Positions 2,302-26,589 of a DNA stretch of 28,207 nt are shown here, piece after piece. A program made the position numbers and the translations under genes. Every line of letters starts with the position of its first letter. Positions within the stretch are counted from its first letter, which is position 1. The stretch is from the NCBI GenBank assembly GCA_013054445.1, contig JAAMPI010000683.1, positions 1 to 28,207 on the forward strand. Direction: 5' to 3'. Below the pieces are notes generated by a model. That model saw nothing but the letters and a program-made list of their open reading frames with translations, was not told where the DNA came from and did not search any database. Origin of the DNA: Cudoniella acicularis (lineage: Eukaryota; Ascomycota; Leotiomycetes; Helotiales; Helotiaceae).

Positions 2302-5300
2302 GATGTCATTATCCGTCGGTTTGTCCGTTCGCAGGTACGTGTTCCCGGGGTTGTTAGCACTTTTTTTTCTCTCTCGCAGATGTGTGGAAAATTCAAACCG
2401 TTTAGCAATCAGGGTTTCAGTCGAGTTGAAGCATTGATCATTTATATACATCACATTTGTTACTTTTTGTTGGTGTTCAGAGACGGAAATAGCCACTGAC
2501 ATCAGCCGTGCAGGCCCCTCGCGCACCTTGGCTGTTTAATCGACGCCCACATCCCCGAATCTACATCGCCGAACCTGCATCCACCTCCAAAAAAAAAAGA
2601 AAAGGAACCCAAAAAAATAAGTCTAACAGCGGGCCGACTTCACATACACCCCACTACCATCATAATTACCTCATTCCCAAGCCCCAGGCCTTCTCCTGCA
2701 GTGTCTCAAATATGCATAATGCAGCCTGGGTCTCGCTGGGGGATCAAGTGCTGGGCTGCAGACAAGCGCAGGATGTGCTGCAAGGGCGATCCCTCCTGAA
2801 AGACAAGGTCCGACCACAATCACAGCACATGTACAGTACAAGTACAACGGCCAGATGTACTACTTTCAGCACCTGTCTATCTCCGGGGCGGCCCCTGAAT
2901 TTTTTTTCCCTTTCTCCTTCAACTTTCTCACGGACAGACGGACAAACCACCGATACGACATGATAATGATGAAACACACTCTAAAAATTTGATTTCTGTC
3001 TCGATATTTTACTTTTCTCGACTTTTTTTTAGATTGGCACCACATCCACGATTTTCACGACTTATAACGACAAACACAGTACTATTCTTCGCATTTCCTT
3101 CTTACTCGGCACCCTAGGATGATTGCTCAGCCGATATTCACTGTAACTTCTGTTTAGCACTGCTTTGCACTTCTCTGCTTGATGGATACAGCACATCAGC
3201 ATATTTGCAGCAGCTGCTGCATACTTGGCACCTACAGTACAGTACACACATACAACAGTTTTGTTTGACTCAACATGTCACTTCTCTCTTTACAAAACCA
3301 GGCCAATCTTTCTATCGACCAGCGCACTAATGGCCCGGCTCCCGACGAAGGCCAGCCGGAAGGAATGTAATAGATACATCACAACTGTTTGGCTTCCCTG
3401 ACGACACTCGACCCTCACACACACAAATTCGCACGCGACTTCATCATTGGGCAGAAAGACTCTTTTTGCTTTCTGTTTGGCCTGTTCAGTTTGATTTGGC
3501 TTGCGTTTGGGTTGGGCGGCAAGACTCCATCTATCTGTTTGCTCGTCTATCTGTTTGTTTACCCCTCAACACTCCCTTTTTTTTCTTCGTGGATTACAGT
3601 ACACAACAACGGCGCACAAAAGCTTTTTGTATTTTTCTTTCCCCCGGTTTCTTTTCCGACTGATCTGTACCATTGTATGGCTACACTAATAATGGGCGGG
3701 TGACGGAGCGGATTGCGTTTTTNTTTTTTTTTTTTTGTTTTTTTTTTTTTTGTTTTGTCTCCTGACAACCGACAGTACATTCTGCAAAAAATTTCTTTTG
3801 TCATCACGGGGTTGACTAGTCGTAAGACTTGATAAAAAGCAGTCCGTAAGCTGTGTAAGCTGTTTACGGATGCCGAAAATGGTGGCAGTGGAGCTGGTGT
3901 ATATTATCTGCCTTGGTTTGGAATTAGCCTAAACCTTTGTCAATAAACTCCATCAGCTAAAAGTTCAATTGCTTCACTCGTTGAGCGATAGACAGGAAAC
4001 CATTGTGAGTGGTTCAATTGTCAAACACTTCGTCCGAACATACTTCGGATGAAAATTTTGCAATTCGCCCAGTTTGTGACCGAATTCGGATACTCATTTC
4101 TACTCTACAGGGCTATCTTTGGCATTGCACAGTACTAACCCCTAGTCCCACGAAGTTCTTCCCGTTGTTGTCTTCAATAGAACCCGTCGCTATAGATAGC
4201 ATATTGAACTTTTGCCCTTGGGATTTTGAACTTGAATAGGCAAGCCTTAGTCCTCATTGCAAGGAATTGCGCCTCTCACTTTTGTCTAATTACTTCCAGG
4301 GCAAGCCTTTGAGTTCCCAGAACCATTTCAGACCTTGAGGCGAATAATGATGTGTTTTCTTCAGATATGAAAATTGATTTCATCAAGTAATTTTTTGAAC
4401 CGATTGTCCCTCTAGTGATTAGGCGGGCCGTGCCGGTAACGCACCCACAACGCTTTAAAGATTAAAAACAGTGCTACAGTGAGAGCTTTAAAAGGGTGAA
4501 ATGAGAAGCATTATTTAAGCATATCTTTTCTTTTCACTTTTCATGTATGCTTTTAATTTCGTGGTTATTTTATTATTTTCAAGTGTCCTGTGCGATTTAG
4601 CGGCAGGTAACTAGGCGGTCGAAGCGACGATTTAAGACGACACAGTAAACAGACGTTGGAAATTAAAAACATAATTATTTTATGCCATGAACAAGAACCT
4701 TTGAAAAAGACATACATATTCGGGTTATTAACAATAAGAAGAGTTGAAACGAATCTATGATGTACCAACTCTTGGAGTCTTGACCGAGCCAATGGGACAA
4801 ACATTTTCACAATCAGAAGCACTCGCTGAATTCAAGGGATTAGAACTCATCCAAACAATAGAGTCCTAGTCGACGTGTTTCTGTTGAAGTACGATTAAGA
4901 GACGTGTCACATTACTAAGAACCTTGTAGATGCACTGCTAATTGGTCGCAATTTGGTACCTTGTCATTTTATGAAGTCAGAATTAAGGATTGCTAATCCT
5001 CAATCTACCTAGTATTTAAGTTCCCGCTTTAGCATATCAAAGTCATGGAAAGCTGCAATTTCACTTTCACCTCTTCTATTTATTACCTCATACGAGCTTC
5101 GACTATCAGACAATTGCTCAGTCTTGTAGCAAAGAAGCCTACTTCAGATCGAATGTGCGTGCCTGTTCCCGATATTGGTTTTCCATTATTAACACTTTGA
5201 AAGCTAGCTTTGAAACGGATGCTCTTACTATCTCGGTTAGACTTTCTTCCGCGACTGGCGTCTGTTGGTCCAAGCCTTCTGTTGATAAACTTGATCTCAA

Positions 5301-5940: not shown

Positions 5941-8090
5941 AACGAGCATTGGTCTCAGGCCGGCACACATCATGGTCTCGCAGCGCGCAGTTTCGGTCCG
6001 TCCGCCAGCAACGGTACTTCGCTGATGTCGCAGCGGGTGTTAGGTAGGTTCTGCCATATTCGAGAGTTTTCTAGATCGCATACTAATACTTTCCATCAGG
6101 CCATACGATGTCGTCGTGATTGGGGGCGGCCATGCTGGCTCGGAGGCATGCGCTGGTGCTGCACGCGCGGGCGCAAGGACGGCGCTCGTCACACCGAAGA
6201 TTGATAATATAGGGGTCTGCTCTTGCAACCCGAGTTTTGGTGGTATCGGGAAGGGGACGATGCTGAGGGAGGTCGATGCACTGGATGGAGTCGCTGGCAG
6301 GATAATAGACAAGGCCGGTGTTCAGTTCAAGGTGTTGAATAGAAAGAAAGGGCCGGCTGTCTGGGTAATTATGATTTCGGGAACCCTCATTTTGGCGACG
6401 GCACGCTAACACCTACCAGGGACCCCGAGCACAGATTGATAGAGACCTTTATAAGAAACATATGAGGGAAGAGTTGCAAGAATATCCGAATCTATCAATT
6501 GTGCCCGGAAGTGTTGCAGACATTATCGTAACACATGATGAGGAAAACCCAACATCTAAAGGAAAGATATCCGGAGTACGGCTTGAGTCAGGAGAAATAA
6601 TACCTACGAATCATGTGGTAATCACCACTGGCACCTTCCTCGGAGGAGAAATCCATATTGGTCTCGAATGCCACCCAGCTGGGCGTATGGGGGAAGCTGC
6701 CACTTTCGGCTTGAGTAAATCGTTGAAGGATGCTGGCTTTCAATTAGGTAGACTCAAGACTGGCACTCCCCCACGCCTAGCAAAACAAAGCATCGATTAC
6801 TCAACGCTTGTTGCCCAGCATGGTGATGAGCCCCCTACACCTTTCAGCTACCTAAACGAGACTGTAGCTGTCCAGGATCAATTGCTTTGCTATGCCACTT
6901 ACACGAACGAGGCCTCGCACAATGTTGTTCGGGCTAACCTTGACAAGTCTATTCATATCAGAGAAACTGTCAAGGGACCTAGATACTGTCCATCCCTGGA
7001 GTCCAAGGTCATACGGTTTGCCGACAAGGAGAGACACATCATATGGTTGGAGCCTGAAGGTTTTAACAGCGATGTGATCTACCCTAATGGAATCTCCATG
7101 ACGATCCCCGCCGAAGCCCAAGAACAGCTACTGAGGACCGTTAAGGGACTCGAAAATGTCACGATGCTGCAACCGGGGTACGGTGTGGAGTATGACTACG
7201 TGGACCCACGGAGTCTCAAAGCAAGTCTAGAAACGAAAGCAATCCGTGGTCTGTTCTTGGCCGGCCAAATCAATGGAACCACGGGATACGAGGAGGCTGC
7301 TGCACAAGGAATCATTGCCGGCATAAACGCTGGCTTGTCATCACTCTCGAAGCCCCAAATGGCACTGTCTCGCAGCGATGGATACATCGGCATCATGATA
7401 GATGACTTGATCACCAAAGGAGTGTCAGAGCCATATCGAATGTTCACCTCTCGCAGCGAATATCGCATGAGTGCCCGAGCAGACAATGCTGATCTGCGTC
7501 TCACCGCAAAAGGTCGAGACGCCGGTATCGTCGGTGACGAACGCTGGTCAAGCTTCCAGTCAGAGGTAGACCAGATGAATAACCTCAAGGCGGCGCTCAC
7601 AGCAAAGTCAGTTAGTGCTCCAAATTGGATTAAAGATGGATTCAAGGTTGGGAACGATTCTACACGGAGAACCGCGTTTGATGTGCTCCGTCTCTCTGGC
7701 GTCACGGTGTCGGATATGGAAAGCGCAGTACCGGAAGTCACCAATTATTCAGCACGCATCCAAAATCGAGTTTGGATTGACTCTGTCTACGCGCCCTACG
7801 TTGCACATCAAACGGCTAGAATAAAGGTTTTTCTGAAAGACGAGAGCCTCAAACTGCCCATCGACCTCAACTATGAACAGGTCCACGGGCTTTCCATGCA
7901 CGAGAAGTCAGTGCTTCTTGCTACGAGGCCTGAATCAGTAGGGCAAGCGCGAAGGATAGAGGGTATGACACCTTCAGGCCTCGTGCGACTACTAGCTTAT
8001 GTGCGAAATCACAACCGGACTCTGAAAAATGTGGATGTTGGTCAGGAAATAGGTGCCGAGCAAGCTGGCGCTAGTGTCAAAATTATTTAA
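5937..8090 (+). CDS. MTO1: MTO1/GidA (MnmG family), mitochondrial tRNA wobble-uridine modification flavoprotein
   Basis: This is the FAD-dependent subunit that, with an MnmE/Mss1 GTPase, makes the 5-carboxymethylaminomethyl group on wobble U34 of mitochondrial tRNAs. Exons are 5937-6043, 6100-6364 and 6420-8090 (680 residues). Intron 1 has TACTAAT before its CAG, and intron 2 has GCTAAC. Residues 1-30 are rich in Arg, Ser and Gln with no acidic residue before D30, a typical mitochondrial presequence. The FAD dinucleotide-binding loop GGGHAG is at about 44-49. The family signatures follow: RLKTGTPPR at about 235-243, GPRYCPSLE at about 310-318 and [16 protein letters not shown] at about 406-421. 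The C-terminal helical domain is complete and length is normal. Splicing restores the conserved [16 protein letters not shown] stretch across intron 2. The gene looks intact, and identification is secure. Confidence 0.96.
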
Positions 8091-10813: not shown

Positions 10814-12372
10814 CTATTTTTTGAGCGACTCGTCATTCGTCTTGCTTTCCTGGGTCAATATCTTCACAGCATCTTTTGTATATACATAACTGGCACCGCT
10901 CCAAATAGTCGTCGTTGCGACTAAATACCTGATTTTTATTGTCAGCAAATGCCTTCTGTAAATTTTTCGGAGAGTTGAAAAGGTGTGTCACTTACTGCAT
11001 AGCCGTCATTGCAGCACCAACATCCATCGTCACAAGTGGCATTGCCGTAGTCGCTCCAATTAATGCTAGTTGTAGTGCAGTGTTATATTTACTGATGGTT
11101 GTGGGGTGGACTTCCGCAGATGGTAGGGAGAAGTCCCAATATCGTGCGAAGGTCTTGGGAGGTGGTAATGAGATCCAGCGGTAGTAGATTGCGGCTGTTC
11201 CTAGACCGACATCTCGACCGAGGATGATAAATGCGAGCCAGACTGTAATGTGAATAGTCAGCGAGTATTCAAATGTTGTGGTTACTTTGATAAAAATGAC
11301 AAAACAAAGAGCATTATATTTAGGGATAATAAGTTGAATTGCTCATCAGAAAAGAAGGAAACATCAAGAGTAATTAAGGCGCATGCAAAAAAATGAAAGA
11401 AATTATTATAAATTCAAGAGTACCAACTTCGACCGCCCAGCACAGGAGAGGAGAAGAATTGATTGAGGTAGGTAGATCGCGTAGACTGAAGCGCAAAACG
11501 AAGGCTCAAGAAACCGCGGATGGAAAGAACAGAGAAGACAAATGGAGTGGATGTAATAAGGAACTTACCTGGAAGAGAACCCTTGACAGCCAAACACACA
11601 GTCAAAATGGTCATTAGCGTCTTGTCAGCCATTGGATCTATAACCGTCCCAACAACGGTCTGCATATTCCATCTTCGAGCAATGTAGCCATCTACAAGAT
11701 CCGTAATTCCTGCATAAGCGAACAATCCTACAGCCCATGCATGTTGGTCATGCAGAACGAGGTAGCCGATGACAGGAGCTGCGATGAGCCGGGAAAATGT
11801 AAGGATATTAGGGATAGTGTAGATGTTCTCGTGGGGTGTGAGCTGTTTGAGAGCTTTCATGAGAGGCTTTTTGGGAGCTGGGGACGGGTTCTTGGGGCTA
11901 GGAATTATCAGCTCTCAATTGGAAAAGGGGGTCTTATCACGTGATCGATAGAAAGGGGGACTTCGAAAGCCATTAGGGCCTGCGACAGAAGGTGATCTAT
12001 GGCCGAGAGTTTTGTTGGGAAGGGGACTTTATACCTTTGGCCATTTTGCGGGGGTCTAGACGTTGAGTATAACACTCTTCGTCCTCTAGCAGAATTTGTC
12101 TCCGATCTCCTGAATTTCTTGTCAGACACATCCAGCACACGCAGCCAACGAGATTCTTACGCAACAAACGATGGACCAAAGTTCGTCATCTGGCATGCTG
12201 TCCATATTCCGCGATAGTTGCGAGCCACGCTACTCCTAGAGCCCGAGGCAGGCCAGATCAAAGACTCCGAAGAGCCCGAAAATCCGGAGTAGCCCAGGGA
12301 CGATGTCCAAGCAGCCTTTGCCCATCTCGAGCATGGTCTGCACCCGATTCTCATGGGCCTAACCATCGCCAT
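10814..12372 (-). CDS. CRD1: Cardiolipin synthase (CDP-alcohol phosphatidyltransferase family)
   Basis: The enzyme condenses phosphatidylglycerol with CDP-diacylglycerol to make cardiolipin in the mitochondrial inner membrane. Exons on the minus strand are 12372-12161, 12109-12035, 11897-11569, 11242-10996 and 10928-10814, giving 325 residues with all phases agreeing. The catalytic motif D-x2-DG-x2-AR-x8-G-x3-D-x3-D is complete at about 162-187. It is preceded by the family phrase LTPHENIYTIPNILTFSRL and followed by hydrophobic segments. Residues 1-70 (Arg, Ser and Trp rich, almost no acid) look like a mitochondrial targeting region. Introns are 51, 137, 326 and 67 bp, most with CTGA-type branch sites; the 326-bp one is long for this window. 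ATG at 12372 has further in-frame ATGs close behind it, and an out-of-frame ATG lies 5 bases upstream. The first exon is less certain than the rest. Confidence 0.92.
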
Positions 12373-14751: not shown

Positions 14752-16146
14752 CTAAGACGTCCCTGCACTAGCCCATTGTTGATGTGCGGTCATGTAGTGA
14801 CCATGCCCCGCACTTGCATTTCCCATTGGCCATATTTCCTGTTTTAAGCTTGGGCTCTCCACCCCTGTATATGATTGCGCCAGTCTGTCATAAGAACTAT
14901 GTTGAGTCAGGGTCGGCAAGGACCTTTGGAGGGAGTAGTTGTGAGGCGTATGGCTGTTTTCTCTGAAACTGCCAAAAAATCCTTGAGAAGCATATCTAGA
15001 ATCGTTGCTAATCTTAGAGTCTGCTGACGTGGAGGAGATGGCCGAAATCCCTGAATCGACGGAACTGCCTTGTTCATATGTCGAAGAACGGCGGGCGAAC
15101 TGTGTAGCGAGAGCTGGAACCTGACCGCGAGATGAATCGGAGCTGATTCCGATGACCGAGTTGTAACGTTGTTGTCGATAGCCACCCATATCATAATTTT
15201 CGGTCTTTGGGGCTAGATAGATGCCAGACGCTGGAGTAAAGTATTGATTGGAGCTCCCCGAATGGACGGCTGGAATACCATCATATAACATGGAATTGGT
15301 GCTCATTCCATAGTTATTGAAAATGGTGGACGCTGGATATGAGATTGGCGGTGTTGGTAAGGACATGGCTCGGCTCGAGATACTCTGATTTGTCATTTCA
15401 TATCCGTTGTGGACGTATTGGTAGGCGCTATAAACTGTTCGATCCTCCATCCGGTCCATGGAGTCCACCTCATCTATTGGTGTGCGGAAATTTTGTTTTG
15501 TGACTAGGTCTGGCCGGAGTGCAATGTGCTGAAATCTAGGGTCTTTAGTTGGAGTGCTGAATTTGTTGTTCATAACGTCGGCGACGGTATAATAGGAGAC
15601 CAGGTGGTGAGAAATACCTCCAACCGTGACGCTAACGGTTTTTTTGACAAGGCCTTCTTCCTTGAACCCGTATGAGTCAACAAGTGACCCTATCAACGAC
15701 CGTTCGGTTTCCTTGCTCAAGGAATTCGACGAGGATGAGTCCAGGTATGAATTGACCGCCGAGGCAGTGTAGCTAGTACCCAAGCCAGAAGCTCCGTAAG
15801 GTTCTTGAGCTTTACTGATGCCAGGGGATCTTTTGCTGCGCTTCATGGCCCTTTTCTTCTCTCCTGGGGGAAATGGGCGCTCCAGTTCTCGATATACAAG
15901 GAAATTTCCCAAGATACGGCTGGGACTCCACGGTACGCCATCGGTCCACCGTTTAATTCCAGAAGAATGCTCTTCGTAGATGAATACATTGCCGCTCTTG
16001 ATTAAGCTCATACGCTCGCGATCATGGGGCCGGCGAGCGACATGATTGAGTGCTCCACTGAGACATGCCTCAAACAGGACGAGAGCGTCCTGAGTGGAAG
16101 CAATATGGCCATAGAAAGTTGGGGAGAGAGGTGAAGCTGATGCCAT
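14752..16146 (-). CDS. REG1: WOPR-domain transcription regulator (Gti1/Pac2 family; Wor1/Ryp1/Sge1/Reg1 type)
   Basis: The gene is a single exon of 464 residues. WOPRa covers about 10-92: an N-terminal phrase TFYGHIASTQDALVLFEA, then the signature IKRWTDGVPWSPSRI at 64-78. The Thr in KRWTDG is the conserved candidate kinase site known for the family. A basic patch, KKRAMKRSKR (98-107), may be a nuclear localisation signal. WOPRb is at about 165-222 (VKKTVSVTVGG...HLVSYYTVADV...RPDL). The C-terminal half is low-complexity, rich in Ser, Tyr, Asn and Gln, as usual. WOPR proteins bind DNA and act as switches: white-opaque switching (Wor1), the yeast phase (Ryp1), and effector or metabolite genes and virulence in plant pathogens (Sge1, BcReg1). 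Its targets here are unknown. The nearly 2 kb of upstream sequence suggests a large promoter or leader. Gti1/Pac2 paralogues are an alternative, but the N-terminus favours the Reg1 branch. Confidence 0.93.
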   Translation of the reverse strand: MASASPLSPTFYGHIASTQDALVLFEACLSGALNHVARRPHDRERMSLIKSGNVFIYEEHSSGIKRWTDGVPWSPSRILGNFLVYRELERPFPPGEKKRAMKRSKRSPGISKAQEPYGASGLGTSYTASAVNSYLDSSSSNSLSKETERSLIGSLVDSYGFKEEGLVKKTVSVTVGGISHHLVSYYTVADVMNNKFSTPTKDPRFQHIALRPDLVTKQNFRTPIDEVDSMDRMEDRTVYSAYQYVHNGYEMTNQSISSRAMSLPTPPISYPASTIFNNYGMSTNSMLYDGIPAVHSGSSNQYFTPASGIYLAPKTENYDMGGYRQQRYNSVIGISSDSSRGQVPALATQFARRSSTYEQGSSVDSGISAISSTSADSKISNDSRYASQGFFGSFRENSHTPHNYSLQRSLPTLTQHSSYDRLAQSYTGVESPSLKQEIWPMGNASAGHGHYMTAHQQWASAGTS

Positions 16147-18062: not shown

Positions 18063-20211
18063 TCATCTGTACAGCCGTCCTTTCATCAACATTCCTTTAG
18101 ATATTCCCCTATCCTCCGCAATCGCGATATGTCCAATGTCGCTATCAGCCTCCACATCAATCAACCGAATCTTCATATTCGCATACTTCCTCGCCCGATC
18201 CGAGCCATCGAGGAAAGACTCGCCGCCCCCTCCTCGAACACGCAGATTCTCCCGCAACAGCGAAGACGAATATCCCAAGATGTCCGGGCCACGAGTGGCG
18301 AGACTGAAAAACGCCCCAAGTATCGCAGCGCAAAGTGCCAGTGTTGAAGCCGCGAAAAGCACTACCAACCATGGGAAGTTGCAAACATAAATTTCTTCTG
18401 AAACGACGTACGTGGCTTGTGTGGTAATATTGCTTGGCGGTGTGAAAGGGATGTAATCATCTGACTGTGTAAAAGTCAAGTTGTTTGGAATTAGATTGCC
18501 CATCATGACGTAAGGATTATAGCTTCCGAACCAGTAGGCATTGATTATCTGTTGGAATCTCACGCTGAAATCCTCGACTGAGACATTTCCCAAGGGCGCC
18601 AGTATTTGGCCGGCTTGTGCCGCCGAGTTTGGATTGGCGAGGTACATCTCAAGAGCTGTGGAATATGCCTCGTGGACTTTGAAGGTCGATGCAGCTATCA
18701 GATTCGACGAAAATTGGTAAAATGCTCCAGAAAACCCAAGATTGGTGAGATTTGTGTTGGCATGATGCAGAGTTGAGGGGCGGATCGCTGTCACGGAGCA
18801 ATTTGCTCCATTGCAGAAGACAGCCGATTCAACATATGTGGTTGTAATCGAGCACCATGCAGTGATTTCATTAAAAGATTCAAACCTTATGGTGAAGGGT
18901 TCATAAGGCGTGGTATCGTTAATAAAATCCGCTACGTTGCCGTAAGTTGCGTTTGTGTAGGCGCCATTTATAGCAATCCCAAAGAATTGCATAGATTCAG
19001 TTGGTGGGCCTTGGAATGTGCTGTTATGAGTTGGCGCGGTATCATTATCGAGGGCACCAAGCCTTAGGGTGATATTGTTGAAACAGTGAAAGGAGAGATA
19101 AGACGTCTCCATGTTGAATGTTGTGTTTCCTTCTGTGGAGATATTGCCGAGCGGATTTCCAAGGATGGAGGAGTAGATGACCGTGCTGCTATCTGCAGGG
19201 ACATCGTACCACCCAGCAGAGTCTGGAGTAATGGTTTCCGGAAGTCTTGAAATGTCTGGAACTTTGACGTTTCCCCACAAATCCATGCTCGAATTCCGAA
19301 TGGCGGCAGGGGCCATCAAAATGGACGAATATAAGGCGTTCAAGGCAGGGACGTTGAAGACATCTCCACTTGAAAATCCGGGATCCGATTCAGTATTAAA
19401 GTATAAGACATTGGTCGACGTCGTGATTGGTCGTTCAGCAAGATTTATGATTTGAAGTGAAGATTGACTTCCGAGGGGTGAAAAGGCCCAGGTACAAAAC
19501 AGGAAGAGTGTTAGAAAATTGAAGCGCCGGACGAAAAATTGCGTGGTAGCGGTTGAACCGAGACCCCGACTTCCTATCAACTGTTCTAGATGGCCAACGG
19601 TTATACCCCTCTCCAACTTCCAGGCTGCAATTTGGTGTATTAAACGGCCAACCACAACTGAGAAGACGAAAGGAAATGCTGTGGCAAGCTAAATCGTCGT
19701 CAGTAAGAGCTTGGCTTCTGCTACTGGACATCCGTACCTTCTTCCCGAAATCGATAAATTCCCTTGAATACTGTTGGTTGTCGACAGACTTATGGTGCAG
19801 ATGCCAAGCCTGATTACCATACATAAAAAACGGAACTGTAAGACCAGCCAGAATAATGCCAAAAACAAGGTCACGAATCAAGTAATGTCGGAAAGTTTGT
19901 GGCCTCTCCGTCAAATATTCACTATCAACCGATCCGTGACCCCTGCTGAATAAAGTTGTACTGGAAAGCGTTGACCTATGGCTTTTCTTGGAGGACCTTG
20001 GTGTCGGAGGTTGCGGATAAGGCGCATATGATGGCAAAGAAGGCCAAGATGGAGAATATGGCGAGGATTCGGGCGACAGTGATTTGTGCGCTTCTTCGGA
20101 TTCGTCCATCGCTGTGACTTTGGTGTAGACAGAACCTGATTTTTGAATATCTTGGAGATTGGAAAGAGTCCCCGAAAAACAATTTTGTCGTTGTTCTGGG
20201 AAACCCTCCAT
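18063..20211 (-). CDS. Multi-pass membrane protein with large N-glycosylatable loop, unknown function
   Basis: There are two exons (20211-19738 and 19688-18063) with a 49-bp phase-0 intron that has TACTGAC ten bases before TTTAG; the product is 699 residues. Residues 46-72 are Ser/Pro-rich and probably cytosolic. Hydrophobic segments lie at about 113-131, 159-179, 214-232 and 600-621. Between the last two is a loop of about 370 residues rich in N-x-S/T sequons and Thr/Ser, as expected for an extracytoplasmic domain. The tail of about 78 residues is charged, with a Gly run (RVRGGGGES). The plan resembles a widespread uncharacterised family of filamentous fungi, some members of which carry the unhelpful label 'formylmethionine deformylase-like'. 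I see no catalytic motif and cannot name a function. The gene looks intact, with a normal ATG. Confidence 0.85.
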
Positions 20212-21519: not shown

Positions 21520-22006
21520 TTAATAGACGCACTTCGAATCAGTCTCCTCGACTTTGGAGTAGTCAATGTAACGAGCCCTCACCCCGTCCACATCAGCAGA
21601 CTCAACCTTGCTGTATTCGATGTAACGTTTCTCATTATCGGCAGCCTCCACCTTGGAATAATCAATGTAGCGTGGCTTGAGCTTCTCTTCCGCTGTATCA
21701 ACCTTGGAGTAATCAATATAACGAGCTTTGAGCTTGTCGTCAGTGGTATCGACCTTGGAGTAGTCGATGTAGCGTTTCTCGTTGTCTGAAGTCTCAACTT
21801 TGGAGTAGTCGATGTAGCGAGGCTTCAGCTTGTCTTCTGCAGGCTCGACCTTGGAGTAGTCAATATAGCGACGGTCCCTGAAAAGCGTGATTAGCGTCTT
21901 TCTGCTCGTTCAAGCTTAGCCAACCGTGTGGGGAAATAACGCACAGAGCTACAGCAGATGTAGTCGCTGCCAGAAAGACTGCTGCGAAAAGGGTAGCGGT
22001 CTTCAT
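21520..22006 (-). CDS. Secreted Kex2-type repeat precursor, candidate dikaritin-like RiPP precursor (seven YI(D/E)YSKV units)
   Basis: There are two exons (22006-21945 and 21877-21520) with a 67-bp intron (GTGCGT donor, GCTAAT branch, TTTTCAG acceptor); the product is 139 residues. Residues 1-20 form a clear signal peptide (MKTA start, long Ala/Val/Phe core, Ala-x-Ala end). After L-D-R-R come seven units of 15-18 residues. Each starts YIDYSKV (YIEYSKV in the sixth), then E or D and an acidic spacer. Units end KLKPR, NEKR, KLKAR, KLKPR, NEKR and VRAR; the seventh ends the protein with C-V-Y. KR and RR are classical Kex2 sites; PR and AR are weaker ones. Signal peptide plus identical cores between basic sites is the plan of Kex2-processed repeat proteins and of ustiloxin/phomopsin-type precursors, whose cores also hold Tyr and Ile. 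No modifying enzyme gene is visible nearby, so a linear secreted peptide is equally possible. ATG 22006 is the only ATG before the signal peptide; the upstream in-frame alternative is TTG. Confidence 0.85.
21524..21868 (-). repeat. Coding tandem repeat, seven units of 45-54 bp
   Basis: The second exon of the precursor is seven tandem units of 45, 48, 51 or 54 bp, always a multiple of three. The core heptapeptide is kept while its codons vary: Tyr TAT/TAC, Ile ATT/ATC, Asp GAC/GAT, Lys AAG/AAA, Val GTC/GTT/GTG. In unit six Ser is AGC instead of TCC. This pattern points to selection on the peptide and not to recent DNA duplication. Units one-two and four-five form matching pairs (KPR then NEKR), suggesting an older two-unit duplication. 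Confidence 0.92.
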
Positions 22007-24079: not shown

Positions 24080-24852
24080 CTACCTCCTCTCCGGAATCTT
24101 CGGAAAAACATTCAAATCATACCCATTCCCCTTCTCCAACGCCCTCTTCCACGCCTCCCTCCCATAAACCCTCTCCAACCACGCATCCAACAAAGGAAAC
24201 TCCCCCTTTAAATCTGCCCAACCCCTTTGCTTAACCATACTAACTTGAAACTCTGCCAAAATATCCGCCCTTCCGGGCCTCTCCCCCATAAAATAACCCC
24301 CCTTGGGCCCCTCCTTCAATTCCCTCTCCAAATCCCCCAGTACACTCCCAAGACTTTTCAACCTCGCTGCTCCAGGTCCATCACCGGGTTTAATAGCGCC
24401 GAAATCAAGATAGAGAGAGAAGAAGAGGGTGCGATTGAGGTTGGTGGAGACAAGGGAGCAGATTACTTCGTCGCGGATCCAGTCGCCGTTTTGGAGGCCG
24501 AAAAGGTCCGAAGTGTCGAAGGTGCGGATGAGGTAGGTTGCGATGGCGCTGCTTTCGGGGAGGTACCGGGTGCCGTCTTTGGGGCCGGTGATGAGGAGGG
24601 GCGCTTTGCCGTAGGGGCCCGTGGATTTGAGGGTTTCTGGAGAGAGGAAAGGGGCGGTAGGGTGGGAGGAGGGGTTGCGTTCGTGCAGGACGAGGTTGTA
24701 TTCTATGTCTAGTTCTTCGAGGAGCCAGAGGATGCGTTGGGATTGTGAGTTCTGGTGGGATTTGGTGGTTAGTTGTTGACGATTTATGAGGGGAAATTGC
24801 GGGTGCTGGGGCTTACGTTGAGGTGGTGGAGCGTTAGTTTGTTGTCTGCCAT
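24080..24852 (-). CDS. Glutathione S-transferase, cytosolic type
   Basis: There are two exons (24852-24817 and 24751-24080) with a 65-bp phase-0 intron; the product is 235 residues, normal for the family. Joining restores the N-terminal phrase LTLHHLN/NSQSQRILWLLEEL, the first strand and helix of the thioredoxin-like domain, where the Ser/Asn region faces glutathione. GPYGKAPLL carries the conserved cis-Pro loop, and ESSAIATYL is the glutathione-binding SNAIL-type motif. The all-helical C-terminal domain includes FMGERPGRADILAEF, the usual helix-capping segment with its Asp. A longer frame exists upstream without splicing, but it reads through the intron and lacks the first strand, so I reject it. 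The likely role is conjugation or peroxide detoxification; the substrate is unknown. It resembles Gtt1-like fungal enzymes. Confidence 0.93.
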
Positions 24853-25627
24853 TTTGAATCTGTGTTTGCAGTGAAGTACTTGTAGGATAGAAAATGAAGA
24901 ACAAAATAATAAATTGTGAACACTTTATAATCTATCTATCACACCGGCCTTTACTTAAAAGCATAGCTTAACTCCAGTGTTGTCCACACAAAGTTTAAAA
25001 AAGACGGGGTGAAATTAGTCCGGATATGACTCTATTCCAAAACTCAGAAACCCATTTCAAGGAAACTACCGGAAAGGCATCGTATTCAGTGAGTCACTAC
25101 TACAGAGATCTCCCGAAGCTTCCGTCGAGCCCGAAATATTGGGCCGCGAAGTAGTACTCGAGGAAGATACAATTATCGTGAGCAACAAACAAAGAGTTGA
25201 TGAAGTGAAGGAGTGTACGTTTATTTCAATGACCAAAGGTGTAGTGATGTTTGAGGAAGATGAACCTCAGTAGATGTCTCCCCACTATCTGATAAGTTTT
25301 AGTTCCAGGCTAAAACTAGTACTTCACATGACCCACCCCCTTCTGGGCACAAACATCGCATGCCTCCTCTCGATATCAAATAGAACGGGGAGCATATGCA
25401 TTTAGAGAATCACAATTCGTCTGATACGATACGACATGACCGGTGAGTGCTGGTTTTGATTAAAATGTCGAGGTTGATGAAAAATTCTGCAAGTAATACA
25501 TAATTTGGGTATCGTGCAATTAAAGCAGTACTCCGGTGAGGGAATGCAAAGTCTAGAAGGGCAAAAACAAAATCACAAAAACGAAACCCCCTCTTCTAAA
25601 ACAGACTCACGGTTTCTTCATGAAGAA
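24853..25627. other. Spacer upstream of the GST gene
   Basis: It contains the GST promoter at its left end and the 3' flank of the AT-hook fragment at its right. No open frame of note is seen. Confidence 0.5.
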
Positions 25628-26075
25628 TCAACAGTTGTGATTCGAGTCTGAATCTGACCAAAATCCGGTCAAGTCAAGCTCCTGCTCGGGCCCACCCTTC
25701 ACTGGAGTGTATTTGACAGTTACTTTTTCTACCCGCGGTTTTGTGATGGTAGCTGGCGTGCGAGGCTCAAAATGATTTAGTTGTGCTTTCCAAAGTGTAG
25801 AATTTAGTGGTTTTGGAGCCAGAACCCGGTCATCTTCATTGTCGGATGTCAAATTAATAACAATCCCCTTCTTGAATGGGAGCTTATTTTCTGGTCTGGG
25901 TGGTTGCGCAACGAGCGGATGGATATCTGCTGCTTTAGATGTTTTGATTTTCTTGGAAGTCGTAGCAGATGATTGCTCTGCAATCGAATTCTTTCGAGGT
26001 CTCCCTCTCTTTTTGGCGGGATCGATGGCTTTCAGATGACCCGTCAGGCTTCACAACCACTTTCTTCGTGCCCCT
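25628..26075 (-). pseudogene. C-terminal fragment of an AT-hook protein, frameshifted
   Basis: The minus-strand frame ending at TGA 25628-25630 reads back through about 135 codons without an ATG. It contains a textbook AT-hook, KKRGRPRK, encoded at 25991-26014, followed by a Lys/Ser/Thr-rich stretch, KLPFKKGIVINLTSDNEDD and a tail with LDLTGFWSDSDSN. Just upstream of the AT-hook the frame closes. A coding-like phrase, TKKVVVKPDGS, at about 26037-26070 lies in another frame, so one small insertion or deletion near 26025-26037 would explain the break. Beyond about 26,080 nothing continues it. AT-hook proteins bind the minor groove of AT-rich DNA. An undetected upstream exon is an alternative, but no acceptor fits well. 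Confidence 0.5.
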
Positions 26076-26100
26076 CGATAGGGAAGCTTGTCCAAGTGAC

Positions 26101-26589
26101 CACGACGGCCCCTATATATTCAACCAGCAGACATACAACGTCACAGTTCCACGACACCTAAATATCAGCGCCTCACCCGCCGATGCGGACAACATCTTCG
26201 AACTCGCACGTGAAGGCTACGGCATTGGAAACTACCCCGCATTCCCACTCATCACACGAAATACAACAGTCAGCTCTCAAGACATCAACAACATATTCAT
26301 TGAAATCCAACCTGGTCAAAATAAAACACTTGGATAGGTTCCTTTCATGCTGTACAGTTATGGCAACTTCGGAAACTGTACGAATTCGATTTTGAATGGG
26401 GTTGGTGTTATGACTGCTGCGCCGTATTTGATGAAGGATACGAATAATAATTCGGTGCTTGCGGGGACTTGGTTTGCGTCTGCGCGGAAAATTACTAGTC
26501 CGGCTGTGTCTATTAGACTTGGAGGTAGTACGTTGAGTGCGGTGATCAGTGGAATTGGTTTGACTGCCCTTTTTGCGTTGATGTTGTAG
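26101..26589 (+). pseudogene. C-terminal fragment of a secreted, probably GPI-anchored protein, with a stop codon inside
   Basis: One plus-strand frame from about 26101 to TAG 26587-26589 reads as good protein, with sequons (NVT, NIS, NTT, NKT, NCT), phrases such as GYGIGNYPAFPLI and YGNFGNCTNSILNGVGV, and a C-terminus of Gly/Ser followed by a hydrophobic run (STLSAVISGIGLTALFALML), the form of a GPI-anchor signal. It is broken by TAG at 26335-26337, after which the frame continues as VPFMLYSYG. No start codon or signal peptide precedes it; upstream the sequence belongs to the AT-hook fragment on the other strand. I do not recognise the family. An intron removing the TAG is possible but I see no good borders. 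Confidence 0.55.

Follow-up and report, generated by a model that had tools for sequence, protein, structure and literature searches.

The window analysed here, 28,207 bases long, is the whole of one contig (C1486), with a single N in the assembly at position 3723. On its minus strand, at 22006..21520 and flanked by 21.5 kb and 6.2 kb, lies a small predicted gene made up of a 62-nt exon, a 67-bp intron and a 358-nt exon. Its spliced product is a 139-aa precursor that begins MKTATLFAAVFLAATTSAVAL-DRR and continues with seven units built on YI(D/E)YSKV. The parts of the gene, taken from the translation unless another basis is given, are as follows.

21945..22006, minus strand: exon 1, with the ATG and the signal peptide MKTATLFAAVFLAATTSAVAL, whose last Leu codon is split by the intron
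21878..21944, minus strand: 67-bp intron, with a GTGCGT donor, a CTAAT branch-like site and a CAG acceptor (from the sequence)
21520..21877, minus strand: exon 2, the repeat array and the stop codon (from the reading frame and translation)
21868..21876, minus strand: DRR site ahead of unit 1 (LDRR with the preceding Leu); P0001, a homologue described below, has RGRR at the equivalent place
21817..21867, minus strand: unit 1, YIDYSKVEPAEDKLKPR, 14 of whose 17 residues, counted by eye, equal unit 1 of P0001
21772..21816, minus strand: unit 2, YIDYSKVETSDNEKR
21721..21771, minus strand: unit 3, YIDYSKVDTTDDKLKAR
21670..21720, minus strand: unit 4, YIDYSKVDTAEEKLKPR
21625..21669, minus strand: unit 5, YIDYSKVEAADNEKR
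21571..21624, minus strand: unit 6, YIEYSKVESADVDGVRAR
21523..21570, minus strand: unit 7, YIDYSKVEETDSKCVY, which has no closing basic site

Elsewhere on the contig, the following frames were assigned.

6378..8087, plus strand: GidA/MnmG (Pfam)
11417..11914, minus strand: CDP-alcohol phosphatidyltransferase (Pfam)
14755..16146, minus strand: Gti1/Pac2 (Pfam)
18066..19688, minus strand: membrane-protein-like frame (by eye; its Pfam match is sub-threshold only)
24083..24931, minus strand: glutathione S-transferase (Pfam)

Ten further frames of 59–99 aa gave a sub-threshold DUF6060 match as their sole Pfam match. At 25966..26586 on the plus strand, two adjacent frames resemble a small secreted or membrane-anchored protein, and the second carries a sub-threshold DUF6060 match. 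No RiPP tailoring cluster was apparent among the window frames scanned, and nothing turned up when the window was scanned for Rfam families and tRNAs.

Retranslation reproduced the coordinates, the strand, the 67-bp intron (21944..21878) and the 139 residues given in a preliminary description of this DNA, together with the DRR site, the seven YI(D/E)YSKV cores and the signal peptide, which was recognised by eye in the 139-aa translation. The same description had all seven units, which are 15–18 residues long (n = 7), closing with a basic site; this holds for units 1–6, but unit 7 ends EETDSKCVY. Because the exon-2 frame, at 129 codons, contains no Met, translation requires the splice.

Searching approximately 5.8 billion proteins recovered one homologue, P0001 (152 aa, E = 2.5e-14), which a profile search found again, and a third protein search with a shorter profile added P0002 (36 aa, E = 1.1e-7), a near-identical copy of the end of P0001 that matches it at 35 of 36 residues. 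The proteome search for tandem YIDYSK-type units in relatives, proposed as a check on the gene, has in this way been run and yielded one family, P0001 and P0002. At the one residue where the two differ, core position 3, P0002 (source jgi) has D in place of the E of P0001, and this position also varies among the window cores. P0001 comes from a contig of 5.8 kb, and the longest contig with P0002 measures 13.6 kb. DNA and protein searches of the gene's own 53.2-Mb genome matched the gene itself only, revealing no paralogue, and among 22 pattern matches in viral contigs and 63 in bacterial and archaeal genomes none was a relative by tblastn.

P0001 looks like an unspliced read-through. We compared the possible codons of the P0001 protein with the window, in a register fixed by eye beforehand, and found that its upstream stretch, read in a shifted frame, fits window exon 1 at 51 of 63 bases, a value reached by none of 3,000 random offsets (mean 26.1, s.d. 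3.3, maximum 40). The next 22 codons of P0001, which correspond to the intron interior, were compatible at 33 of 66 bases (random mean 27.3; 206 of 3,000 offsets reached 33), and the 24 codons preceding exon 1 at 38 of 72 (mean 31.4; 131 of 3,000 reached 38). A looser, residue-level test found 14 of 21 signal-peptide positions compatible, which 14 of 2,000 shuffles reached. Since exons 1 and 2 share one ungapped register, P0001 would have an intron that is likewise 67 bp long and equal in phase, and on our reading its splice points are a GT in a Cys codon and an AG in an AGR Arg codon. A conserved exon, an intron interior that is not clearly conserved between the possible codons of P0001 and the window, and an equal inferred phase and length give the proposed intron at 21878–21944 independent backing.

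The window gene and P0001 share the signal-peptide exon, the intron position, the RR site, the cores and the KLKxR spacers. Their joint core consensus is Y-(I/V/T)-(D/E)-Y-(S/F)-(K/G)-V-(E/D), and both Tyr residues are retained in all 11 full units. Core position 2 reads T, V, I and I in the P0001 units, always a beta-branched residue. Within the window array, compared over 21 pairs of units, the seven codons of the core gave a pS of 0.744 and a pN of 0.050, and the five codons after the core gave 0.664 and 0.367, respectively. High pS combined with low pN indicates that the cores are not young copies and that selection on the peptide keeps them, which puts numbers to the earlier remark that synonymous variation preserves the core. 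We rejected synonymous saturation as a special property of this gene, as the other Kex2-processed repeat protein (KEP)-like arrays examined share it: eight arrays linked to UstYa matches elsewhere in the genome had pS values of 0.58–1.05 and pN values of 0–0.11, a ninth (L021) having been left out of this comparison for its irregular unit. A possible cause of the saturation, offered as an idea only, is that scrambling the codons keeps the repeats from recombining or slipping against one another, or from repeat-induced mutation.

The junctions of the array are, in order, LDRR, LKPR, NEKR, LKAR, LKPR, NEKR and VRAR. Three of the seven are dibasic (LDRR and the two NEKR) and the remaining four are LKPR (twice), LKAR and VRAR; in P0001 one junction of four is dibasic. 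Arg stands before every core; the preliminary description lumped dibasic and single-Arg junctions together. The placement of Arg is unlikely to be incidental: in 200,000 shuffles of the 70 non-core residues from Leu21 onwards, Arg never came to stand directly ahead of every core (six of the seven at most), and all nine Arg residues of the precursor lie at position −1 (seven), −2 (one) or −3 (one) relative to a core. P0001 likewise has Arg before all four of its cores, although its cores and tails have changed.

In PMC8528282, extended Kex2 sites have Arg at P1, Leu or another aliphatic residue at P4 and a tolerant P2, and yeast Kex2 is described in PMC6258133 as strongly preferring LXXR. We applied the extended rule, [KR]R or [LIVAP]xxR, to the window precursor from Leu21 and to P0001 from RGRR. 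All seven window junctions satisfy it, and it divides the window precursor into LDRR plus exactly seven units (eight pieces) and P0001 into RGRR plus exactly four units (five pieces), with no cut inside a unit in either. If Ala20, outside the tested string, is included, ALDR also matches, one residue ahead of the RR cut. A dibasic-only rule gave LDRR plus blocks 1–2, 3–5 and 6–7 for the window precursor, and RGRR plus a single uncut array for P0001. LKAR and VRAR have Ala at P2, which is missing from the P2 residues listed in PMC8528282. KEPs expressed in Pichia gave products ending at a single Arg, according to PMC9769878. As four of the junctions are not dibasic, cutting at those four is a prediction. 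The genome gave one P_proprotein (kexin-type P-domain) match, with one in-frame stop inside that may mark an intron.

Judged from its sequence, the predicted gene looks real and of the KEP kind, and we consider it likely that it encodes a new KEP from which short, acidic, Tyr-rich and probably linear peptides are released. The secreted, Kex2-type repeat plan put forward at the outset finds support in the architecture, the homologue and the unit-exact pattern of sites. The signal peptide would route the precursor into the secretory pathway, where Kex2 may cut after Arg at the seven unit boundaries, through canonical (LDRR, NEKR) and extended (LKPR, LKAR, VRAR) sites. Kex1-type trimming of C-terminal basic residues would then leave peptides of 13–17 residues, all predicted to start Y-(beta-branched)-(D/E)-Y-x-x-V-(D/E). 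These would be secreted, most likely linear or lightly modified, and may act extracellularly, either as signals or on the biotic environment. With two alternating kinds of site, processing may be staged: the dibasic sites might be cut first, giving blocks 1–2, 3–5 and 6–7, and the single-Arg sites afterwards, giving monomers. The computed monoisotopic masses of the predicted linear peptides are 1561.678 (YIDYSKVETSDNE), 1515.673 (YIDYSKVEAADNE), 1893.972 (YIDYSKVEPAEDKLKP), 1873.931 (YIDYSKVDTTDDKLKA), 1897.967 (YIDYSKVDTAEEKLKP) and 1899.921 (YIEYSKVESADVDGVRA), with 1940.871 for the C-terminal peptide YIDYSKVEETDSKCVY.

The gene resembles described KEPs (Le Marquer 2019, Umemura 2020) in its signal peptide, its three or more near-identical short units, its Kex2-type sites, its compact array and its small size, and differs from them in having (Leu/Val)xxR instead of a dibasic site at four of seven junctions. 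KEPs are characterised by three or more near-identical repeats of at least 8 residues each, and the window precursor has seven of 15–18. The survey methods count dibasic sites only, as set out in PMC6339444 and PMC7329392, so the family of the window gene could be missed by both surveys. The gene shows that precursors with Leu-x-x-Arg junctions could escape dibasic-only surveys. The linear KEP peptides Rep1, MiSSP8, alpha-factor and candidalysin are similar in that Kex2 releases them from precursors. They are likened to the window gene by plan, not by sequence, and we take their core and charge pattern to differ from those seen here. YI(D/E)YSKV-type core strings were not found in the main texts of the open-licence PMC papers searched. 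The core is new relative to those texts, in keeping with the preliminary description, which did not place it among described compounds. The gene adds to the known KEPs one with a core new to the searched literature and a homologue elsewhere, and the masses listed above make its peptides searchable.

A dikaritin-like RiPP, its cores cross-linked through Tyr1 or Tyr4 by an oxidase of the UstYa type whose gene lies past the end of the contig or at another place in the genome, seems unlikely to us. The gene does share with the dikaritins (ustiloxin, phomopsin and asperipin-2a) a KEP precursor plan and a Tyr-rich core, and the core follows directly after the site, presumably as in asperipin-2a. In favour of such a product are the two Tyr residues in 11 of 11 full units, the constantly beta-branched position 2 (I, V or T) and the UstYa matches (UstYa/UstYb, DUF3328) of the genome, at least 121 at E = 0.001 or better. 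Tyrosinase matches number at least 48 at that threshold; both figures are lower bounds on matches that were tallied exon by exon and so correspond to fewer genes. Also in favour, in PMC7329392 Tyr occurs in 65.6% of DUF3328-linked KEP repeats and in 38.2% of the others. Against it, the 28.2-kb contig holds neither a UstYa/UstYb nor a tyrosinase match, its end lying 6.2 kb from the gene, and the EDYxI core reported for ustiloxins and phomopsins (PMC6339444) is absent from the window precursor, whose core is YI(D/E)YSKV. The dikaritin-type identity suggested in the preliminary description is unsupported on both counts, and a ring is only hypothetical. Its proposal of a Tyr–Ile ether, or of cyclization through Ile2, fares no better: Ile2 is not kept across the window gene and P0001, so the ether is unsupported, and with no UstYa match near the gene we set it aside. 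A link through the two Tyr residues is possible in its place.

The surroundings of UstYa matches elsewhere in the genome also weigh against a dikaritin-like product. As a control, we took 20 stretches, none longer than 10 kb, around UstYa matches, mostly the best-scoring ones, on 19 contigs, and called arrays by an exact-4-mer repeat scan alone; the sample is entirely UstYa-centred. The scan covered 35 loci plus the window, and we dropped from the count L001, L014 and the window, as the window gene's own copies, as well as L010, which holds the same array as L024, and four rows that cover this array in other reading frames, two from each of these loci. A KEP-like array was present in 9 of the 20 stretches (L015, L021, L024, L028, L029, L031, L032, L033 and L034), 569–2,152 bases from the nearest UstYa match, unlike the context of the window gene. 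Example units are NYYYYGE, IPWTKNYGEYEE, NEADVDSIQW and HHTEAQIAAKKAKA. In eight of the nine arrays the units are separated by dibasic sites, with a single KG junction in L031 as the exception; the ninth array is L029. The predicted window gene differs in context and sites from most of these sampled arrays, and the genome looks rich in UstYa-linked peptide clusters, given its at least 121 UstYa matches and the nine arrays.

A second doubtful possibility is that the gene represents a class of repeat precursor of its own, which surveys restricted to dibasic sites would mostly overlook. In this class, alternating dibasic (NEKR/LDRR) and single-Arg (LKxR/VRAR) Kex2 sites would set staged processing, so that one gene gives a twin-Tyr peptide as dimers and trimers and also as monomers, and a trans-acting oxidase might cross-link the peptide.

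We think it improbable that the cut units are surface-active or structural peptides like the Ustilago maydis Rep1 repellents, forming fibrils on the hyphal wall. Kex2-cut repeat proteins are capable of such assembly, according to PMC8528282, and a single-sequence structure model shows six strands along the array. The units are short and highly charged, however, and the modelled strands carry little weight because the model averages a pLDDT of 43.9 and not one residue reaches 70.

That the protein is secreted uncut, to serve as a repetitive and mostly unfolded component of the wall or surface whose basic residues are incidental, is very improbable. It would agree with classical dibasic sites at just three of seven junctions, and with a DUF2171 match to the precursor of 27.4 bits, above the curated Pfam cut-off of 25. 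Yet in this tandem-repeat query no single stretch of the DUF2171 match, or of a DUF2999 match (21.6 bits, under its cut-off of 25), passes alone; both were rejected, and the DUF2171 match is probably the sum of chance repeat matches. The confinement of every Arg to a core boundary, the shuffling result and the retention of Arg before all four P0001 cores despite changed cores and tails also speak against whole-protein secretion. A mating-pheromone-like precursor, for all its common prepro-repeat plan, can be dismissed almost entirely: the Ste13 XA/XP dipeptides that serve in PMC6339444 as a criterion for alpha-pheromone precursors are absent directly after the sites, all seven units opening with YI, and there is no Cys/Trp core of the kind we presume to be pheromone-like.

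Among the arrays linked to UstYa, the one at L029:2278-3153 (minus strand) consists of 11 di-His units (HHTEAQIAAKKAKA) close to the UstYa match. In front of each of the 11 units, P4 is L, I or V and P1 is Arg, so the window gene is not alone in having (L/I/V)xxR junctions. Five of these junctions lead directly into the His-His core and the others into the dipeptides EP, AP or EA, which look similar to Ste13 signatures.
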